The notes: generated by a model from the sequence alone, not told the origin. A stretch of DNA of 64,000 nucleotides from Acidimicrobiia bacterium (GCA_026002975.1 BPGJ01000013.1:1-64000), one strand, 5' to 3'. Shown: positions 10,171 through 51,256, counted from the first letter of the stretch. Numbers and translations: made by a program.

Positions 10171-10992
10171 TTGGCGTCGGGGATTCTGACCCTGCTGTTC
10201 GTCGCGCTGCTGACCAGCAGCTGCTTGTCGGGCAGCGGTCCGGCACCTGCGACTGTGGAGACCGCATCAACCGCAGGGCAGACTGCCACGACGACAGGGG
10301 ACACATCGGGATCATCTCTGTTGACCGCAGGAGGGCTCACATTCGATGCTCGTCTGCTGGACGTCCAGACAGGACCGCGACTCGAGATAGAGGTGACGAT
10401 GCTCATCCGAATCTTGAGTCCGGAATGTGACGAACAATGCCCCGAGCTCCTCACGCATCTGGTGAAGAGCGGGGTGCTGGTCGATTACCGGCTCACCACC
10501 GTAGGAGAGGTCCAGGAATTGGTGGTGCCCAACAAGGTGGACGCCATCTCATCGGTGGTTCAAACCCTGACCTTGGAAGGTGTCCCCCCCGGCGAACACT
10601 GCATCGCCGTTTTCTTCCAGGATCTCCGAGTGGACGACGGCGAGGTGATCGGTCGGGAGGGAATGATGGGCTGGTATCGCCACCTGAACTTGAGCCCCGA
10701 GGAATCCGAGACCCCGTCGATCCGATCCTACTGCTCCACCGACGGTCTCCCGGTAGCGGAAGGCACCTTCGTCCCCCTCGAAGCAGAGGGCTGCCGAGGC
10801 CTCCCCAACGGCATCACCACAGACCCCACCACCGGAACCAGACTCCCCGACGGCCAACTGATGGTGCTGGTGCCCACCTGCCCCCAGGACCTGGTCGCGG
10901 ACACCCCCCGTGACTTGGTGCGCAACCCCCTGGTTTTTGTCACAGGGGGAACGTATGTTCGGGGGTATGGAGTGGCACGGTTTCTCGACTGA
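10171..10992 (+). CDS. Putative lipoprotein of unknown function
   Basis: Unrecognised secreted protein. A hydrophobic stretch ILTLLFVALL is followed by lipobox LTSSC and a Ser/Thr/Ala-rich linker (about 35 residues), then a beta-rich-looking domain with several cysteines (PECDEQCPELL, PPGEHCI, SYCSTD, AEGCRGLP, PTCPQ) that could form disulfides outside the cell. The ORF track starts at 9934, but that overlaps the tail of the preceding gene. TTG 10171 places the signal sequence at the N-terminus; ATG 10090 is an alternative. Its 3' end overlaps the next gene by 26 bases. Confidence 0.55.
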   Translation: MASGILTLLFVALLTSSCLSGSGPAPATVETASTAGQTATTTGDTSGSSLLTAGGLTFDARLLDVQTGPRLEIEVTMLIRILSPECDEQCPELLTHLVKSGVLVDYRLTTVGEVQELVVPNKVDAISSVVQTLTLEGVPPGEHCIAVFFQDLRVDDGEVIGREGMMGWYRHLNLSPEESETPSIRSYCSTDGLPVAEGTFVPLEAEGCRGLPNGITTDPTTGTRLPDGQLMVLVPTCPQDLVADTPRDLVRNPLVFVTGGTYVRGYGVARFLD

Positions 10993-29192: not shown

Positions 29193-29972
29193 GTGATCGA
29201 GTTTCCGCCTCCCAGACCCGGAGAGCCCGTCCGGGTGTCGGCGACCCTGTTCGTCACCTGGAGGCGATGTCCCATGCAGGCGGGAGCTCGACTGCAAGGC
29301 ATCTACCCGCCCGAGACCGTCCGCACCTTCACCGGGGCTCTTTGTCACAGGTTGTTCGCCCGTCATCTCCGGACCGGACCCATCCCCCCCGAGCTGATCC
29401 CCCAGGTGTGTCGAGAGGAGATCGGGGCGGCACTCAACCCGAAGATGGCCGCGGCCGGGGTGGCTTCACCGGGGAGGTTGCGACCCGTCATCGAGGAGGC
29501 GGAGCGGATCTACCGGCGGTTCACCACCCTCACTGCCCATGGGTTCGAGGCAGCCGAGGTCGATCTCGAAGTCGTCCCCGCCGACGGGGTGACGATCGTG
29601 GGTCGAGTGGACGCCGTGTTCAGGCCCGGCGACGGTGTAGTGCTGGTCGATTGGAAGACGGGTGAACTGGGGGACGACGTCGACATCCAACTGGGTTTCT
29701 ACGCTCTGCTCTGGGCGCTCGACCGGGGCGAGCTACCTGCTGCGGTGGAGGCGGTGTCGGTACGCACCGGGGAACGGATCCGGCGCCGACCGACCGTCGG
29801 TGAGCTCACCGACATGGCCCGCGACGTGTCGGCCATGGCGGGGACGCTGCGGGAGATATGGGAGTCGGGCGGCAGCCCGCCCGTCCGACCCGGACCCTGG
29901 TGTGCCCGCTGTCCCGTGCTGAGAGACTGCGGGGAGGGGTCGGCCGCCGTCCGGCTACTGTCCGGGCCATGA
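29193..29972 (+). CDS. PD-(D/E)XK nuclease, Cas4/RecB-like, with four cysteines
   Basis: 259 residues of the PDDEXK_1 type. The nuclease core is GRVDAVF (D140) followed by VVLVDWKTGEL (D153, K155). A cysteine near the N-terminus (TWRRCP, C26) and three near the C-terminus (WCARCPVLRDC: C237, C240, C246) match the iron-sulfur-bracketed architecture of Cas4/AddB-type nucleases. No cas genes or CRISPR array are in the window, so a role in DNA repair or processing is more likely. GTG 29193 has TAGCAT nine bases upstream. It overlaps the next gene by four bases. Confidence 0.85.
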   Translation: MIEFPPPRPGEPVRVSATLFVTWRRCPMQAGARLQGIYPPETVRTFTGALCHRLFARHLRTGPIPPELIPQVCREEIGAALNPKMAAAGVASPGRLRPVIEEAERIYRRFTTLTAHGFEAAEVDLEVVPADGVTIVGRVDAVFRPGDGVVLVDWKTGELGDDVDIQLGFYALLWALDRGELPAAVEAVSVRTGERIRRRPTVGELTDMARDVSAMAGTLREIWESGGSPPVRPGPWCARCPVLRDCGEGSAAVRLLSGP

Positions 29973-42786: not shown

Positions 42787-43221
42787 TCAGCGGAGCACCA
42801 TCCAGGCTCCCGCCAGCAGCAGGACCACACCGGCCGCGCGGGGGAGATCCACCGGCCGCACCGGGGCGTTCAGCAACCCGAAATGGTCGATCAGGCCGGC
42901 GAACAGGAACTGGGCGGCGGTCATCACCGTCAACGTACGCACCACTCCCAGCCGGGCGGCGCTGAACGCGATCGATCCGACGATGACCAGGCCGAGGAGC
43001 CCCGACGTCCACACCCACCAGGGCAGCTGACGGACCTGACCGATAGCCCCTCCCCGGGCGGCGGCGAGGAGAAGGGTGACCGCCAGACCCCCGCCGGCGT
43101 AGGTGACGAAGACGCTCTCGAGCGTCCCCATGCGGCTGTCCATGAAACCGGCGATCTGGGTTTGGAGGGCCACCCCCAAACCGCCGAGCACCGCGACCAG
43201 CACGATCAACCACAGCGACAC
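42787..43221 (-). CDS. YdcZ/DUF606-type DMT transporter
   Basis: 144 residues with five hydrophobic segments, beginning LWLIVLVAVLGGLGVALQTQI; half the size of a typical EamA protein, as usual for this family, which works as a dimer. Substrate unknown. GTG 43221 has GGAGG upstream at a longer spacing (GGAGGTGCATGGAAC). It ends exactly next to the convergent sugar-dehydrogenase stop with no gap. Confidence 0.88.
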   Translation of the reverse strand: MSLWLIVLVAVLGGLGVALQTQIAGFMDSRMGTLESVFVTYAGGGLAVTLLLAAARGGAIGQVRQLPWWVWTSGLLGLVIVGSIAFSAARLGVVRTLTVMTAAQFLFAGLIDHFGLLNAPVRPVDLPRAAGVVLLLAGAWMVLR

Positions 43222-43295
43222 GTTCCATGCACCTCCTGAAGCGGGCAGGCTAGGCGTCGCGAGGGGTGGGTGGTTCGCGTGTCACAGCCCACGGT

Positions 43296-43301
43296 TACGA
43301 T
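43296..43301 (+). promoter_or_regulatory. -10 element of the HerA-SbcD-SbcC-NurA operon
   Basis: TACGAT eight bases before the herA ATG (43310). The other three genes overlap end to end, so this is probably the main promoter of the whole resection operon. Confidence 0.6.
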
Positions 43302-43309
43302 CCCCCGCC

Positions 43310-44986
43310 ATGGAGACCGATCAGGTGGGGAGGGTCCTGGGGACCGAGGACGCCACCCCCCTCGAGTTCTGGTTCGGGGTGGGCGACGACGTGGCCGTCC
43401 AACTCGACGACGTGGTCGCCACCGAGAGACGCCTCCCCGGGGGTGGAAGCGTCAGGATCTACGGGGTGGTGTCCCAGGTTCGTGCACGGTACGAGGGCGC
43501 CCGCTACGACTCGGACGTGTTCCTCATCGCCGACGGTGTGCTCCCGGCCGAGATCTCCGAGGCGGCCCAGGTGATGGCCACACGTTTCGAACCCGAGACC
43601 TTCGTCCCGCCGCTCCCCGGCACGCCGGTGAGGCTGGCGGCCGATTCGGAGCGGGAAGAGGCGCTGTTCTTCGACCGGATGGAGCATCGCCTGCCGATAG
43701 GCCTGAGCCGCTCGGGCGAGCCCCTGTACCTGAACCTCGACTTCCTGGACGGTAGGCGCGGCGCCCACGTCAACATATCGGGGGTCTCGGGTGTGGCCAC
43801 CAAGACCACCTACGCCACCTTCCTGCTCCACTCCCTGTTCAACAGCGGGGTGCTCGGCACCCGGGGCACCAACACCAAGGCGCTGGTGTTCAACGTCAAG
43901 GGCGAAGACCTGCTCTTCCTCGACCGGCCCAACCTCCACCTCGACGACGAGCAGCGGGCTAGATACGAACTCCTGGGGCTGCCACCCCGACCTTTCCGGT
44001 CGGTGCGGATCTTCGCCCCGGCCCGTCCCGGCCCCTCGGGAGCTCCCCAGACCGCCGCCCGGCTGGAAGGGGTATCGGCGTTCTTCTGGACTCTGGCCGA
44101 GTTCTGTTCCGAAGAGCTGCTGCCCTTCCTGTTCGCCGACGCCGAGGACGACCGGGCCCAGTACACCATGGTGGTCCACAACGTCGCCACCCAGCTCAAG
44201 CGCCGAGCGGTCCCCATGGACCAGGGCGGGGGAGTGAGGATCGACGGGGAGACGATCAGCACCTTCCGGGACCTCGTCGGCCTGGTGTCCAACAAGGTGC
44301 AGGACGAGGAGCACCGGTACGACTGGGCCGGTCCGGCGATCGGAACCGGGACCATCAACGCCTTCCTGCGGCGGCTCCACTCGACCGTGCGGCACGTCGA
44401 GCGGATCATCAGGGGAGACGTACCCGGCGCGGAGCGACGGACGGTTACGCCCCTCCAGGGCCAGCTCACCGTGGTCGACCTGCACGGTCTCCACGACCGG
44501 GCGAAACGGTTCGTGGTGGGTGTGATCGTCAGGCGGGCCTTCGAAGAGCGGGAGGCCCAGGGTTCCTCGGAGGAGCTCTTGTTCCTGGTCCTCGACGAGC
44601 TGAACAAATACGCCCCTCGGGAGGGGTGGTCGCCCATCAAGGAGATCCTGCTGGACGTCGCCGAGAGGGGACGCAGCCTCGGGGTGATACTCATCGGCGC
44701 TCAGCAGACCGCCTCCGAGGTGGAGAGGCGGATCGTGTCCAACTCGTCCATCCGGGTGGTGGGAAGACTCGACACCGCCGAAGCAGGCCGAGAGGAATAC
44801 GGGTTCCTGCCCGGCACCCTGCGCCAACGGGCCACCATCCTCAAACCGGGGACCATGATCGTCTCCCAGCCGGAGCTCCCGGTGCCGCTGGTGGTCGAAT
44901 TCCCGTTCCCGGCGTGGGCGACGAGAGCCGCCGAAGCCGACCGGTACGAGGAAGGAGCCGGCGACCCGTTCGACGACCTCTACTGA
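43310..44986 (+). CDS. herA: HerA-family DNA translocase ATPase with variant P-loop
   Basis: 558 residues. N-terminal beta-barrel HAS-like domain (1-110), then a RecA/FtsK-type ATPase. The Walker A site reads SGVSGVATKTTYA (K165), lacking the usual GxxGSGKS glycine-lysine spacing. Walker B is LLFLVLDELNKYAP (about residue 430), followed by sensor IGAQQTASEVERRI and the late arginine-rich STRNSSIRVVGRLD-like region. HerA rings pump DNA and associate with the NurA nuclease, encoded three genes downstream. Between them lie sbcD and sbcC, giving the complete archaeal-type end-resection set. The 43103 start in the track is extended. Confidence 0.88.
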   Translation: METDQVGRVLGTEDATPLEFWFGVGDDVAVQLDDVVATERRLPGGGSVRIYGVVSQVRARYEGARYDSDVFLIADGVLPAEISEAAQVMATRFEPETFVPPLPGTPVRLAADSEREEALFFDRMEHRLPIGLSRSGEPLYLNLDFLDGRRGAHVNISGVSGVATKTTYATFLLHSLFNSGVLGTRGTNTKALVFNVKGEDLLFLDRPNLHLDDEQRARYELLGLPPRPFRSVRIFAPARPGPSGAPQTAARLEGVSAFFWTLAEFCSEELLPFLFADAEDDRAQYTMVVHNVATQLKRRAVPMDQGGGVRIDGETISTFRDLVGLVSNKVQDEEHRYDWAGPAIGTGTINAFLRRLHSTVRHVERIIRGDVPGAERRTVTPLQGQLTVVDLHGLHDRAKRFVVGVIVRRAFEEREAQGSSEELLFLVLDELNKYAPREGWSPIKEILLDVAERGRSLGVILIGAQQTASEVERRIVSNSSIRVVGRLDTAEAGREEYGFLPGTLRQRATILKPGTMIVSQPELPVPLVVEFPFPAWATRAAEADRYEEGAGDPFDDLY

Positions 44987-46116
44987 TGGTCCGGATCCTC
45001 CACACCTCCGACTGGCACGTGGGCCGGGCGATGAGAGGCATCTCCCGGGCGGAGGAGCATCGACGGGTACTGGACGAGATGGCCGACCTCGCCGCGGATC
45101 GGCGGGTGGATCTGGTCGTGGTGGCAGGCGACCTCTTCGACCAGGCGGCACCGACCCCGGAGGCGGAACACATCGTCTACCGGGGGCTGCTCCGCCTGGC
45201 GGAGGTCGCACCGGTCCTCGTGGTAGCGGGCAACCACGACAACCCCCGCCGGCTGGAGGCGGTGGCTCCGCTCCTCAGCCTGGGTCGAATCCACGTGGCT
45301 TCCCACCTTCGGCCACCTGACGAAGGGGGTGTGGTCGACTACCCCGACCTGGGGGTGCGGGTGGTGACCATGCCCTGGGTGAGACCCCAGGCCCTCATCA
45401 AGGCGGAGCAGATGTTCTTCTCGGACCCCCCCGACCGAGCCCAGACCTACGCCGCCAAGCTCGACCGGGTGGCTCGCCGGCTCTCCGAGGAGTTCGTCGC
45501 CGACCGGGTCAACCTGGCAGTGGCCCACCTGAGCGTGTACGGGGCGGAACCGTCCGGGTCCGAGCGAGCCGTGCGGAACGTGTTCGAATACGCGGTTCCG
45601 GCTTCGGCATGGGAGGGAGCCTCCTATGTGGCGTTGGGTCACTTCCACCGTCCGCAGCGAGTCGACGCCCCCGGGGAGGTCTGGTACTCGGGGTCGCCAC
45701 TTCAGCTCGACTTCGGCGAGGCCGGCGAAGCCAAATCGGTGGCGGTGGTCGAGGCGGAGCCGGGCCTACCTCCCACCATCGAACAGGTGCCGCTGCAAGG
45801 CGGACGACGGCTGGTGGTCGTCCAGGGAAGCCTCGACGAGGTGGTGGAGCAGACCAAGGACCTGGACGACTGTTTCGTCAAGGTGATCCTGCACGAGAAG
45901 TCGCGGGTCGGTCTGGCCGAGGAGGTGAGGGAACTCGTACCCGGAGTCGTCGAGGTACAGGTGGCGAAGTCCGAACACGACCGGCCGAGCCGACCCAGCC
46001 GTCGAGGTCGGAGCCCGGTGGAGCTGTTCGCCGAGTATCTGTCGTCTCGGAGCATCGACGACCCCGAGCTGGTGGCGATGTTCACCGAACTGCTGGAGCA
46101 GGTAGATGAGACCTGA
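44986..46116 (+). CDS. sbcD: DNA double-strand-break nuclease subunit SbcD (Mre11-like)
   Basis: 376 residues of the calcineurin-like phosphoesterase family with all manganese motifs: HTSDWHVGR (D9, H11), VVVAGDLFDQ, VVAGNHDN, VAHLSV and YVALGHFHRPQ. With SbcC it trims blocked DNA ends and hairpins. Its ATG (44986) overlaps the herA TGA by one base, and sbcC starts 11 bases before its stop, so all three are coupled. Confidence 0.96.
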   Translation: MVRILHTSDWHVGRAMRGISRAEEHRRVLDEMADLAADRRVDLVVVAGDLFDQAAPTPEAEHIVYRGLLRLAEVAPVLVVAGNHDNPRRLEAVAPLLSLGRIHVASHLRPPDEGGVVDYPDLGVRVVTMPWVRPQALIKAEQMFFSDPPDRAQTYAAKLDRVARRLSEEFVADRVNLAVAHLSVYGAEPSGSERAVRNVFEYAVPASAWEGASYVALGHFHRPQRVDAPGEVWYSGSPLQLDFGEAGEAKSVAVVEAEPGLPPTIEQVPLQGGRRLVVVQGSLDEVVEQTKDLDDCFVKVILHEKSRVGLAEEVRELVPGVVEVQVAKSEHDRPSRPSRRGRSPVELFAEYLSSRSIDDPELVAMFTELLEQVDET

Positions 46117-48481
46117 GAAGCTGCGCATCCAGGGTTTCTCCGCCTACAAGCAGCCGACCGAACTCGACTTCTCCGGCGCCGACGTGTTCGTCCTCACCGG
46201 GCCGACCGGATCCGGAAAGACCTCGATCCTCGACGCCATCTGCTACGCCCTGTACGGCACGGTGCCCCGCCTCGGCAAGAACGCGATAGAGCCTGCGATC
46301 GCCCTGGGCTGCCTGGAAGCCCGGGTCGAGTTCGAGTTCTCGATCGATTCCGACCTCTACCGGGTCGTCCGGGTCGCCAAGCGCACCAAGACCGGCGCCA
46401 CGTCGGAAGCCGTGCTCGAGGGTGGCCGGTTCGTGGGTGAGGACAAGGTGACCGGCTCCATCCAGGTGACGAGAGCCGTCGAGGGGCTGCTGGGGCTCAC
46501 CTTCGATCATTTCGTCAAGTCGGTCCTGCTCCCGCAGGGACAGTTCGCCGCCTTCCTCCACGACGACCCCAGGGGTCGCCAAGGACTGATCGAGAAACTC
46601 CTCGACATGGGCATCTACGAGCGGGTCCGGGAGAAGGCGGTGGAACGTGCAGCCGTCTGCAGGGGGCTGATCGACGAGGCCACCCACCGGCTGGAGGGAC
46701 TCGCCGACGTTACGCCGGAGCGGGTGGAGGAGGCTCGGCGAAGGGCGGAGGAGCGAAGGAAGCTGCGGAGCGAGGTGTCCGAGCGCCTTCCCCGGCTCGA
46801 GTCGATGGACACCCACCTCGCCGACCTGATCCAGCAGGCCGAACGACTCCACCGGGCACACGAACTGCTCCTCCAGGTCGCCGTTCCCGACGAGGTCGTG
46901 GAGGCGGGACGTCACAGACAGGAGATCGAAGACACCATCGCCGAGTCGGAACGACGAACCGTCGAGCTCGAGTCGGAGGAGGAAGAACTGCGGGAGCGGC
47001 TGGCTGCCGTACCCGACGACCTCGCCGAGACGATCAACCTGCATCAGGAACACGTCCGGGTCTCCGAAGCACTGTCGGCTGCCACCGAGGCGACCGCCGC
47101 GGCCCTCGCCGAGGCCGAGAGAGCCCGCCGCGAGCACCAGGCCGCGGTCGCCAACCGGGAGGAGGCAGAAGCGCGAGTCGACGAGATCGCCTCGAGGCAC
47201 CAGGCCCACCGGCTGGCGCGGAGGCTGGTGGTCGGGGAGCCCTGTCCGGTGTGCGGCCGGACGGTCGAGGCGGAACCCAGCCTGAGCGAACCCGGGGATC
47301 TGGTGGGGGCCGAGGAGCAGCTCGAACAGGCCAGGAGACGGGAATCCGAAACGGCCCGGGTCAAGGACCAGGCCGAGAAGGCCCTGGCTCGGGCGGAGGA
47401 GCGACGCGCCCAAACCGAGACGCGTCGCCTCGAACTGGAGAGCCGGCTGGCGGGCAGGCCACCCCTGGAGCAGGCCCAGGCCCTGGCCGAGGAGAGGGAC
47501 CGGCTGAAGGAGGAACTCGAGCGGAACCGGCGCCGCCTCAAGGAGCTGAGAGCCGACCTCGGCAGGCTCCGCGAGCGTCTGAGCAGTCTGGAAGAAGGCG
47601 AGAAGGAGCAACGGCGGCGCCTCGACGAGCTCCGCCGGCGGCTCGCCGCGGCCGGTCTGGAGGTACCCGGACTGGGGATGGGAAGCCTGGTCGAGGAGTG
47701 GGAGCTGCTCAGCGACTGGGCACACGTCGCCGCGGAGGAGCTCGCCCGGAGTGGGGCCCGTCTCCGGGAGGCGATCGAAGCGGCGGAGTCTGATCGACGT
47801 GGCTTGGTGGCCGAGCTGGAGGAGATGCTGGCCGCCGCAGGGCTCACCACCGATGGTGATCCCAGGGAGACGGTCGTGCAGGCCGAACAACAGGCCGAGA
47901 GGGAGTTGGAGGAACTCTCCCGCCGTCTGGAAGAGAAAAAGGAGCTGGAAGCGAGGAGGACGGAGCAGGAACGGCAGGCGAAACTCGCCGAGCAGCTCGC
48001 CCGACATCTGCGGTCGGACGGTTTCCGACGTTGGCTGGTGGAGGAATCCCTCCTCGACCTGGCGGAAGGAGCCAACACGATCCTCGAGGACCTGGCGGGT
48101 GGGGCCTACTCCCTCCGGGTGGAGGGAGCCGACTTCCGGGTGGTGGACCACCGCAACGCCGACGAGGTTCGATCCGTCCGTACCCTGTCGGGCGGCGAGA
48201 CCTTCCTGGTGTCCTTGGCGTTGGCTCTGGCGTTGGCCGAGAACCTCGCCACCCTGGGGCTGGGCACCACCCGCATCCAATCGGTCTTCCTCGACGAAGG
48301 GTTCGGAACCCTCGACCCCGAGACCCTCGACCAGGTAGTCGAGGTGATCCACGAGTTGGCCGACAAAGGCCGGATCGTTGGTCTCGTCACCCACGTAACC
48401 GACCTGGCCGAGCGGATCCCGGTCAGGTTCGAGGTGAGGAAGGGACCTGGGGGAGCGACCGTGGCGAGGGTGGTGGCGTGA
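46106..48481 (+). CDS. sbcC: DNA-repair ATPase SbcC (Rad50-like)
   Basis: 791 residues: N-terminal ATPase half with LTGPTGSGKTSILDAI and QGQFAAFL (Q-loop), long coiled coil of Arg/Glu-rich sequence, zinc hook CPVC (C380 and C383), a second coil, and the C-terminal half with signature TLSGGETFLVSLALALALAE and Walker B SVFLDEGFGTLD. It is shorter than the E. coli protein, mainly in the coils. It works with SbcD. The nurA gene overlaps its stop (GTGA). Confidence 0.96.
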   Translation: MRPEKLRIQGFSAYKQPTELDFSGADVFVLTGPTGSGKTSILDAICYALYGTVPRLGKNAIEPAIALGCLEARVEFEFSIDSDLYRVVRVAKRTKTGATSEAVLEGGRFVGEDKVTGSIQVTRAVEGLLGLTFDHFVKSVLLPQGQFAAFLHDDPRGRQGLIEKLLDMGIYERVREKAVERAAVCRGLIDEATHRLEGLADVTPERVEEARRRAEERRKLRSEVSERLPRLESMDTHLADLIQQAERLHRAHELLLQVAVPDEVVEAGRHRQEIEDTIAESERRTVELESEEEELRERLAAVPDDLAETINLHQEHVRVSEALSAATEATAAALAEAERARREHQAAVANREEAEARVDEIASRHQAHRLARRLVVGEPCPVCGRTVEAEPSLSEPGDLVGAEEQLEQARRRESETARVKDQAEKALARAEERRAQTETRRLELESRLAGRPPLEQAQALAEERDRLKEELERNRRRLKELRADLGRLRERLSSLEEGEKEQRRRLDELRRRLAAAGLEVPGLGMGSLVEEWELLSDWAHVAAEELARSGARLREAIEAAESDRRGLVAELEEMLAAAGLTTDGDPRETVVQAEQQAERELEELSRRLEEKKELEARRTEQERQAKLAEQLARHLRSDGFRRWLVEESLLDLAEGANTILEDLAGGAYSLRVEGADFRVVDHRNADEVRSVRTLSGGETFLVSLALALALAENLATLGLGTTRIQSVFLDEGFGTLDPETLDQVVEVIHELADKGRIVGLVTHVTDLAERIPVRFEVRKGPGGATVARVVA

Positions 48482-49380
48482 AGTTCAGCGTGGAGCAGTG
48501 GCAGCCGGAATACGGGGTCCCCGCCGGGCCGGACCTCCCCGCCGCCGTCCCACCAGTCGATCTGTCGGTGGAGGTTCCGCCCCGGGGCTGGGGTCCGATT
48601 CGTCCCGATGCCGAGGCGGTGGAGTCGGTCCTCTTCGCAGACGGTGTGAGGAGGGTCGACGCCAGCGTGTGGATCGAAGTGGACCAGGGTTCCCGACTGG
48701 GACTCTGCGCCAGTTACGCGGCGGGTGCCGTGCTCTGCCGGGCCGACTCGGCGGAGATCGTCGGGTGTCGGGTGGAACGCGGGCTGTTCACGGCGGTGTC
48801 CGACGCCCAGGCGATCTCCACCCGGCACGCCCGATATCCGGTCCGTCCCACCCCGGGGGAGTCCCCCGAGGAGCTCTGGCTGGGGATCCAGAACAGGATG
48901 GCCGACCTCGAGGCCGAGGTGGGACTGGACGTGGAAGCCGACCTGGTGGTCGTCGACGGGCCGCTTTCCCACCACCGGGCGCTCCCCAGAGCAGTCGGAT
49001 ACGTCAAGACCCAGCACGTGCGTTACCTGCCCGACGAGTTGACGCCGGTCCTGGCCGGTCTCCCGGTGGGGAGACGGACACCACTCTTCCTGGTGGGGGG
49101 GCCCCGATCGGGCTTCTCGTGGTATGTGCGGATCGGCAGCGGGGGAGGAAGTCTCGGTGGTCTAGCTCGATGTGAGATCACCGCGGACCGGGAGGTCGCC
49201 GAGGCGGCCCGCCTGGCCGATCGGGTGACCGCCACCCTGCCTCGCTTCGCGTCCAAGGAGCACAAGGACCCGAGAGCCCCCCAGAACCTGTACCCGGTGG
49301 GGGGTCTGGAGCGGGTCCTGAGGCATCGTCTGGGCGACCAGTCGGTCCTCTACCGGTCGCTCCGGGCGGCGGCCATCTGA
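48478..49380 (+). CDS. nurA: NurA-family 5'-3' nuclease
   Basis: 300 residues. The NurA domain shows FADGVRRVDA (D55, and D61) near the start and LVVVDGPL (D160) in the middle, the aspartates that bind manganese in the family. VKTQHVRYLP and the late LPRFASKEHKDPRAPQNLYPVGGLE follow. It resects DNA ends together with the HerA pump. GTG 48478 overlaps the sbcC TGA. Its 3' end overlaps the convergent EamA gene by 31 bases. Confidence 0.88.
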   Translation: MKFSVEQWQPEYGVPAGPDLPAAVPPVDLSVEVPPRGWGPIRPDAEAVESVLFADGVRRVDASVWIEVDQGSRLGLCASYAAGAVLCRADSAEIVGCRVERGLFTAVSDAQAISTRHARYPVRPTPGESPEELWLGIQNRMADLEAEVGLDVEADLVVVDGPLSHHRALPRAVGYVKTQHVRYLPDELTPVLAGLPVGRRTPLFLVGGPRSGFSWYVRIGSGGGSLGGLARCEITADREVAEAARLADRVTATLPRFASKEHKDPRAPQNLYPVGGLERVLRHRLGDQSVLYRSLRAAAI

Positions 49381-50270: not shown

Positions 50271-50323
50271 GCTACGTGTCGTCGGGGGTTGATAGGGTTG
50301 GCGGTGAGGCAGGAGGAGGGAAC

Positions 50324-51256
50324 ATGAAGGTGGCGGCGGTCCAAGGCACGCCCGCGTTCCTCGACTCCCGTGAGACCACCGAGCGCATCGTGGGGTACGT
50401 GGAGCGAGCCGCGGACGAGGGGGCGGAACTGGTGGTATTCCCCGAGGCTTTCCTCCCGGGCTACCCGGACTGGGTGTGGAGGCGACGGCCCTGGCAGGAG
50501 TATCCGTCCGATTGGTTCGTGCGCCTGTTCGACCAGGCGGTGGTGGTTCCGGGGCCGGAGACGGCCTCGATCTGCCGGGTCGCCGCCCGACGGAGAGCCT
50601 ACGTGGTGGTGGGGATGGACGAACGGGTCGGGAACACCATCTACAACAGCCTCGTCTTCTTCGGACCCGACGGCGAGATCCTGGGGAAGCACCGAAAGCT
50701 GATGCCCACGGGCGGGGAGAGGCTGGTCTGGGGAATGGGAGACGGTTCGACCCTCCGTACCTATCCCACCCCCTTCGGAAAGCTGGGCGGTCTGATCTGC
50801 TGGGAGAACTACATGCCGCTCGCCCGGGCGGCCCTCTACGCCGAGGGCGTCGACGTCTATCTGGCTCCCACCTGGGACAACTCGGATACCTGGGTGCCGA
50901 CCATGCGCCACATAGCCAAGGAGGGCCGCTGCTGGGTGGTGGGTGTGACCGCCTGTCTCCGTGCCACCGACATCCCCGCCGACATTCCCGGAAGGGACGA
51001 GATCTACGGCGACGAGGACGACTGGCTGTCGAGGGGTAACACGGTGGTCGTCGCCCCCGACGGGGAGATCGTGGCCGGGCCGCTGGTGGGGGAGGAGGGT
51101 ATCGTCTACGCCGAGCTGGACCCGCTCGAGACCAGGCGGAACAAGCTCCAGTTCGACCCGGCGGGACACTATTCGCGTCCCGACGTGTTCACCCTTCTGG
51201 TGGACAGGACCGCCCGTTCGGGTGTCGTGTTCGGTGATGGAGAGGAGACGGAATGA
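50324..51256 (+). CDS. Nitrilase
   Basis: 310 residues of the nitrilase branch: catalytic glutamate in VVFPEAFLPGYPDWVW, lysine in KHRKLMPTGGERLVW and cysteine in GGLICWENYMPLAR. CWEN is typical of true nitrilases (aliphatic/aryl nitrile to acid plus ammonia), while CYD-type is seen in the amidohydrolase at 2535. ATG 50324 has GGAGGAGGG five bases before it and TAGGGT (50293) further up, so this gene has a leader. It overlaps the MaoC gene (ATGA). Confidence 0.9.
   Translation: MKVAAVQGTPAFLDSRETTERIVGYVERAADEGAELVVFPEAFLPGYPDWVWRRRPWQEYPSDWFVRLFDQAVVVPGPETASICRVAARRRAYVVVGMDERVGNTIYNSLVFFGPDGEILGKHRKLMPTGGERLVWGMGDGSTLRTYPTPFGKLGGLICWENYMPLARAALYAEGVDVYLAPTWDNSDTWVPTMRHIAKEGRCWVVGVTACLRATDIPADIPGRDEIYGDEDDWLSRGNTVVVAPDGEIVAGPLVGEEGIVYAELDPLETRRNKLQFDPAGHYSRPDVFTLLVDRTARSGVVFGDGEETE

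Follow-up and report, generated by a model that had tools for sequence, protein, structure and literature searches.

In the archaea Sulfolobus, Pyrococcus and Thermococcus, the four gene families herA, mre11, rad50 and nurA are found in one operon, in the order herA-mre11-rad50-nurA. Both the families and their order are also those of the locus described here, which lies in a window of 64,000 nucleotides (the whole stretch of DNA analysed) from an Acidimicrobiia bacterium; compared with the archaeal operon, the window proteins belong to bacterial branches, with a NurA of bacterial type. In vitro, the NurA-HerA system of Deinococcus radiodurans (structure 7F6D) weakly resects the 5' strand in a reaction coupled to translocation; what it does in the cell is disputed, and when nurA or herA is deleted in Deinococcus or Thermus, the effect on damage survival is modest or even beneficial (PMC9960219). 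The only bacterial four-gene cluster which we found described is nurA-hepA-sbcD-sbcC of Oceanithermus profundus, read as SbcCD recruitment in one genus (PMC5448004), and a review mentions homologs in Actinobacteria (PMC8708640). A literature search, with some older papers outside its reach, found no description of a cross-phylum four-gene module, of its two gene orders or of a PafBC-type promoter, and no paper linking PafBC with NurA.

In actinobacteria, the break-end resection genes of AdnAB and RecBCD are part of the PafBC regulon and have RecA-NDp promoters, like the promoter predicted here; the mycobacterial regulon includes recA, AdnAB and RecBCD (PMC8223512). The RecA-NDp promoter is a RecA-independent damage promoter of actinobacteria with the consensus tTGTCRgtg-8 nt-TAnnnT (PMC5656591), which is bound by PafBC (PMC5656591, PMC8223512). 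The AdnAB and RecBCD enzymes are unrelated to HerA-NurA, and AdnAB is encoded elsewhere in the host genome (G000; 2.3 Mb, 85% complete).

Gene layout and proteins of the locus

The features of the locus and its immediate neighbours are the following:

42787-43221, divergent, upstream of herA: YdcZ-type gene
43280..43301, + strand: predicted RecA-NDp/PafBC-type DNA-damage promoter, TGTCA - 11 nt - TACGAT
43310-44986, + strand: herA, 558 aa
44986-46116, + strand: sbcD (Mre11), 376 aa
46106-48481, + strand: sbcC (Rad50), 791 aa, CPVC hook
48478-49380, + strand: nurA, GTG start, 300 aa
49350-50270, convergent, downstream of nurA: EamA gene

The four coupled, overlapping genes of the original prediction were confirmed at 43310-49380, with successive overlaps of 1, 11 and 4 nt. 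Since the neighbouring genes are divergent (YdcZ-type) and convergent (EamA), the transcription unit should consist of exactly these four genes, and the gene layout thus places all four families of the archaeal operon in one predicted unit. Beyond these two, the genes found up to about 6 kb away have metabolic or housekeeping functions, with no defence or mobile genes found over that distance, and the GC content of the operon is that of the remaining window.

By its sequence, the herA product belongs to the bacterial (Deinococcus) type of hexameric DNA translocases. It matches the D. radiodurans HerA structure (7f6d_B) over nearly its full length (phmmer E 1e-155), and with a family profile Deinococcus HerA is reached at E 4e-212; the best archaeal score in the same profile search is 2e-7, for the Thermococcus entry 9x1l. 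The residues K165 (Walker A), D200 (catalytic), D429-E430 (Walker B) and R455 are invariant in an alignment with 26 relatives. They correspond to K175, D220, D487/E488 and R513, the ATP binding and hydrolysis residues of D. radiodurans HerA, or drHerA (PMC9960219); the catalytic residues are thus shared with that protein, and so is its unusual Walker A, SGVATKT. Concerning the three acidic residues by which drHerA binds NurA (D78, E80 and D81), the window protein keeps only the first, as the aligned and conserved D69, and has F71 and L72 at the others. Its nearest HerA relatives come from uncultured Acidimicrobiia.

The nurA product is identified by profile, alignment and structural model as a bacterial-type NurA, RNase H-like and of bacterial topology, with predicted nuclease activity. 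It matches D. radiodurans NurA (phmmer 1.8e-18; family profile 1.2e-71) and, with the family profile, Thermotoga maritima NurA (3.6e-22), and no archaeal NurA was matched at E<=1 in the profile search. The alignment contains the motifs DG 55-56, DG 160-161 and a C-terminal HKDPRAPQNL; these, and W8 near the pin, are shared with Deinococcus NurA, and W8 is at least 90% conserved among relatives. In a Foldseek search with the AlphaFold model (pLDDT 91.7), the Deinococcus structure 7f6d comes first, followed by 1zup (Thermotoga) and then by the archaeal 2ygk (Sulfolobus). The original prediction had staked its reading on HerA and NurA answering to profile searches, and this nearly failed with Pfam: HerA has no match and NurA lies just below the threshold (18.5 bits vs a 21-bit cut-off), so that profile libraries alone would miss both. 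The identity of the two proteins stands on the Deinococcus structures and the AlphaFold model.

SbcD and SbcC are, from their profile scores, ordinary bacterial subunits. SbcD scores 182.8 bits with the NCBIfam model sbcd_Bac vs 49.7 with that of archaeal Mre11, and 173 bits with TIGR00619 (cut-off 77.65); its best PDB matches are SbcD structures (E 3e-33). SbcC scores 288 bits with TIGR00618, below the cut-off of 478.5, plausibly because the window protein is short, vs 104 bits with the Rad50 model PRK03918. It contains PF13476 and PF13558 above cut-off, the CPVC zinc hook and a Walker B motif, and its best PDB match is SbcCD subunit C (6s6v, E 1e-46). A second sbcC copy was not found in the host genome. 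The designation 'archaeal-type', used in the original prediction, is therefore not retained: all four proteins are members of bacterial families, their archaeal HerA and NurA counterparts can hardly be detected, and the set occurs widely among bacteria.

Distribution and gene orders

The genome scan gave 237 HerA relatives, the best 80 of which were read, and more loci were taken from whole-genome searches. HerA was matched in 79/397 actinomycete genomes (65/397 with E below 1e-50), 80/94 Deinococcota, 38/61 Gemmatimonadota and 8/81 Chloroflexota. The four-gene cluster is found in all four of these phyla (at least four), in two orders. Among 156 HerA loci, 68 are HerA-SbcD-SbcC-NurA and 39 are NurA-HerA-SbcD-SbcC, 14 contain a NurA-HerA pair whose run lacks sbcDC, two are of other types, and 33, mostly at contig or locus ends, were unscorable. 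The window order thus recurs in other genomes and is not confined to this contig. The O. profundus cluster shows the other order, and in Deinococcus, too, nurA comes first; in roughly half or more of the Deinococcota loci that were read, the nurA-herA pair is unlinked from sbcDC. In contrast to the one-genus reading of the O. profundus cluster, the association seen here spans four phyla and takes in a deep HerA branch.

Gaps of 30 nt or less were found between HerA and SbcD in 47 of 71 complete loci, between SbcD and SbcC in 55, and between SbcC and NurA in at least 48, the last being a lower bound as the 71 include NurA-first loci, where the measure does not apply. In several close relatives herA and sbcD lie 1.5-7 kb apart, with unrelated genes in between, so tight coupling is not indispensable. 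A hidden accessory gene in this gap was considered and rejected, since the inserts vary by lineage and resemble unrelated metabolic or other genes, as plain insertions would.

The HerA-first order forms one clade of the HerA tree (SH-aLRT 98) with a sole exception (L147), and two order changes are enough to explain the gene orders. The 36 HerA-first rows of the NurA tree all lie on one side (SH-aLRT 99), as do all 39 of the SbcD tree, where they are joined by L147. As the HerA, NurA and SbcD trees all split the two orders, the parts have been inherited together. The exceptional locus, from a Gemmatimonadota genome (G605), has the HerA and SbcD of the HerA-first clade and an upstream NurA which lies outside that clade's NurA; it looks like a hybrid with a swapped NurA. 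Three single genomes contain two different HerA-NurA-SbcCD systems each (L102/L103 in G282, L164/L165 in G141 and L125/L126 in G398).

The order NurA-HerA-SbcD-SbcC covers nearly all other clusters, including a HerA branch of about 30% identity across the midpoint root, and is on that rooting probably the older one. With the HerA-first order apparently secondary in bacteria, its match with the archaeal operon is probably convergent. The phylum labels on the HerA tree need 15 changes, which argues that the module has moved between phyla. One phylum-crossing member (L014) lies on a chromosome record of 4.5 Mb; the Truepera case comes from a small contig of a metagenome and may reflect mis-binning.

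Promoter and the PafBC regulon

A plain sigma-70 scan upstream of the operon gave no promoter above chance. The single -10 element of the original prediction, TACGAT at 43296-43301, holds and fits the RecA-NDp consensus. It ends 8 nt upstream of the herA ATG, and the mRNA is for this reason probably leaderless. The core TGTCA-11 nt-TACGAT is fully matched, the upstream half at 6/9 positions; the outer positions of the motif (ttg, gtg) are poorly conserved.

The promoter hypothesis was drawn from the window and tested on the loci of relatives. The strict core TGTCR-Nk-TANNNT precedes the first operon gene at k=11 in 39/117 actinomycete loci, and at ten other spacings (6 to 16) in 0/117. The motif is nearly absent from non-actinomycete loci, with 0/39 for the strict core (Fisher p 3e-6) and 2/39 for the relaxed core YGTCN-Nk-YANNNT, vs 85/117 actinomycete loci for the latter at k=11 (Fisher p 2e-14; at most 11/117 at other spacings); the relaxed core was widened after the strict result had been seen, and since the loci are related by descent, both p values overstate the independent observations and are to be read as an ordering of evidence. 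The motif tracks the first gene, standing before herA or before nurA according to the order.

In the host genome, the strict pattern occurs at 25 sites vs 14 for the backward control. In ten of the 25, that of herA included, 6-9 nt separate the end of the site from the start codon of an open frame, a spacing that leaderless mRNAs would show. Among the genes preceded by the motif are recA, dnaX, comM and one for a RecB-family nuclease, immediately ahead of AdnAB. Each of three genes of the DUF222/HNH type (L190, L204 and L205) has a RecA-NDp core 6-7 nt before its start, which suggests, at the level of sequence, that this poorly understood actinobacterial family may belong to the DNA-damage regulon of this genome. 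The window contains a second RecA-NDp core at 10938-10959 on the + strand (TGTCACAGGGGGAACGTATGTT), 8 nt before an ATG; the frame which follows seems to resemble these DUF222/HNH genes. A further core, at 50277-50298 (+), lies 25 nt before an in-frame ATG in a carbon-nitrogen hydrolase gene (50276-51256) and may be due to chance.

Concerning the regulator, the host genome encodes the canonical dop-pup-prcBA-pafA-pafB-pafC-tatA-tatC locus, several genes of which were recognised by sequence and order only. PafB and PafC, which had no NCBIfam match, were assigned from their WYL domains and the gene order, the two WYL genes being next to each other and flanked by pafA and tatA-tatC.

Relation to AdnAB and proposed role

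Adjacent AdnA-like and AdnB-like genes are present in the host genome, with the AdnAB entries 7sjr and 6ppu as best matches (6.5e-44 and 1.6e-90). A comparison of two tables gives a PDDEXK_1 domain of the AdnAB type, a nuclease domain not unique to AdnAB, at E<=1e-20 in 62/65 actinomycete genomes with a strong HerA match. The original prediction had left it open whether the operon acts alongside RecBCD/AdnAB or in place of it; only the former agrees with these data, and substitution for AdnAB in this host is ruled out by the presence of AdnAB in the same genome. The window also contains a stand-alone PDDEXK_1 (RecB/Cas4-like) nuclease gene at 29193-29972 (+; 68 bits).

The exceptions come from one family (f47): G155 has no PF12705 match, and the matches of G224 and G232 are weak. 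AdnAB may have been lost in this family, which is possibly a lineage where HerA-SbcCD-NurA does replace AdnAB. Three of its loci (L102, L104 and L181, from G282, G155 and G224) are HerA-first operons with AdnAB-type nuclease domains absent or weak and, near the operon, a UvrD-like frame of about 910-1010 aa; in two of them about 2.6 kb separates herA from sbcD.

We regard it as quite likely that the locus is a bacterial-type operon for processing the ends of double-strand breaks, induced by DNA damage under the control of PafBC and working beside AdnAB. Single-stranded DNA arising from damage would activate PafBC, which would turn on the RecA-NDp promoter and yield a leaderless herA-sbcD-sbcC-nurA mRNA. 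SbcC-SbcD would recognise, tether and open broken or blocked ends through cuts near them; the HerA ring would then load on the opened duplex and pump DNA into the NurA dimer, which would remove the 5' strand and leave a 3' tail for RecA. The operon would act beside AdnAB, perhaps on ends closed to it. This repair reading is based on the intact catalytic residues of HerA and NurA, the four-gene linkage in four phyla and in the HerA branch of about 30% identity, the trees which split the two orders, the motif at one correct spacing, the PafBC locus and the metabolic flanks.

An antiviral nuclease operon, in which HerA pumps foreign DNA into NurA, is an unlikely alternative. HerA rings feed effector nucleases (Sir2, DUF4297) in known defence systems, the patchy presence among actinomycetes and the movement between phyla fit such a role, and a 2026 study of Thermococcus HerA-NurA doubted end resection and proposed an antiviral function (PMC12977600). 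However, PADLOC has no match for NurA, and its HerA models reach the window protein only over the motor, at about 3e-6; there are no defence or mobile genes nearby and no known defence effector is paired with HerA. The predicted DNA-damage promoter is common to the operon and recA, and the frequency of HerA in Deinococcota is core-like.

We find it rather improbable that the four proteins act as a modulator which competes with or dampens other resection systems and not as a productive resection machine. A modulator has been suggested for Deinococcus and Thermus, where the effects of deletion, which count against the repair reading, mean that the net role may be regulatory. In D. radiodurans deletion improves tolerance of mitomycin C and UV, and the weak activity of drHerA-NurA in vitro points the same way (PMC9960219), as does AdnAB in the same genome. 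The linkage to SbcCD and a damage-inducible promoter would be odd for a brake, though, and as in Deinococcota the pair often lies apart from SbcCD, the phenotype seen there may not be transferable. An archaeal operon gained by horizontal transfer and replacing AdnAB, for which the matching gene families and the archaeal donor assumed in the literature for Deinococcus-Thermus could be cited, is highly improbable given the archaeal profile scores, the bacterial SbcC and SbcD and the presence of AdnAB; those scores rule out transfer from archaea in recent time, the span to which the conclusion applies as the trees contain no archaeal rows.

The role of bacterial HerA-NurA is disputed, with repair, anti-repair and antiviral readings all published, and recent papers place the pair mainly in Deinococcus-Thermus, one of them assuming archaeal transfer. 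The conserved link to SbcCD across phyla and a predicted DNA-damage promoter of the kind which also drives recA argue for repair, and a direct test is open in culturable actinomycetes, e.g. Actinoplanes, Catellatospora and Pseudonocardia, also as to what a second system would contribute beyond AdnAB. On a wider view, whose chances we judge to be evenly balanced, Actinomycetota would have a second PafBC-controlled resection pathway parallel to AdnAB, with SbcCD opening the ends and HerA-NurA resecting them, and the module would be not an import from archaea but an old bacterial unit which spreads between phyla en bloc and is rewired to whichever damage regulator is present locally.
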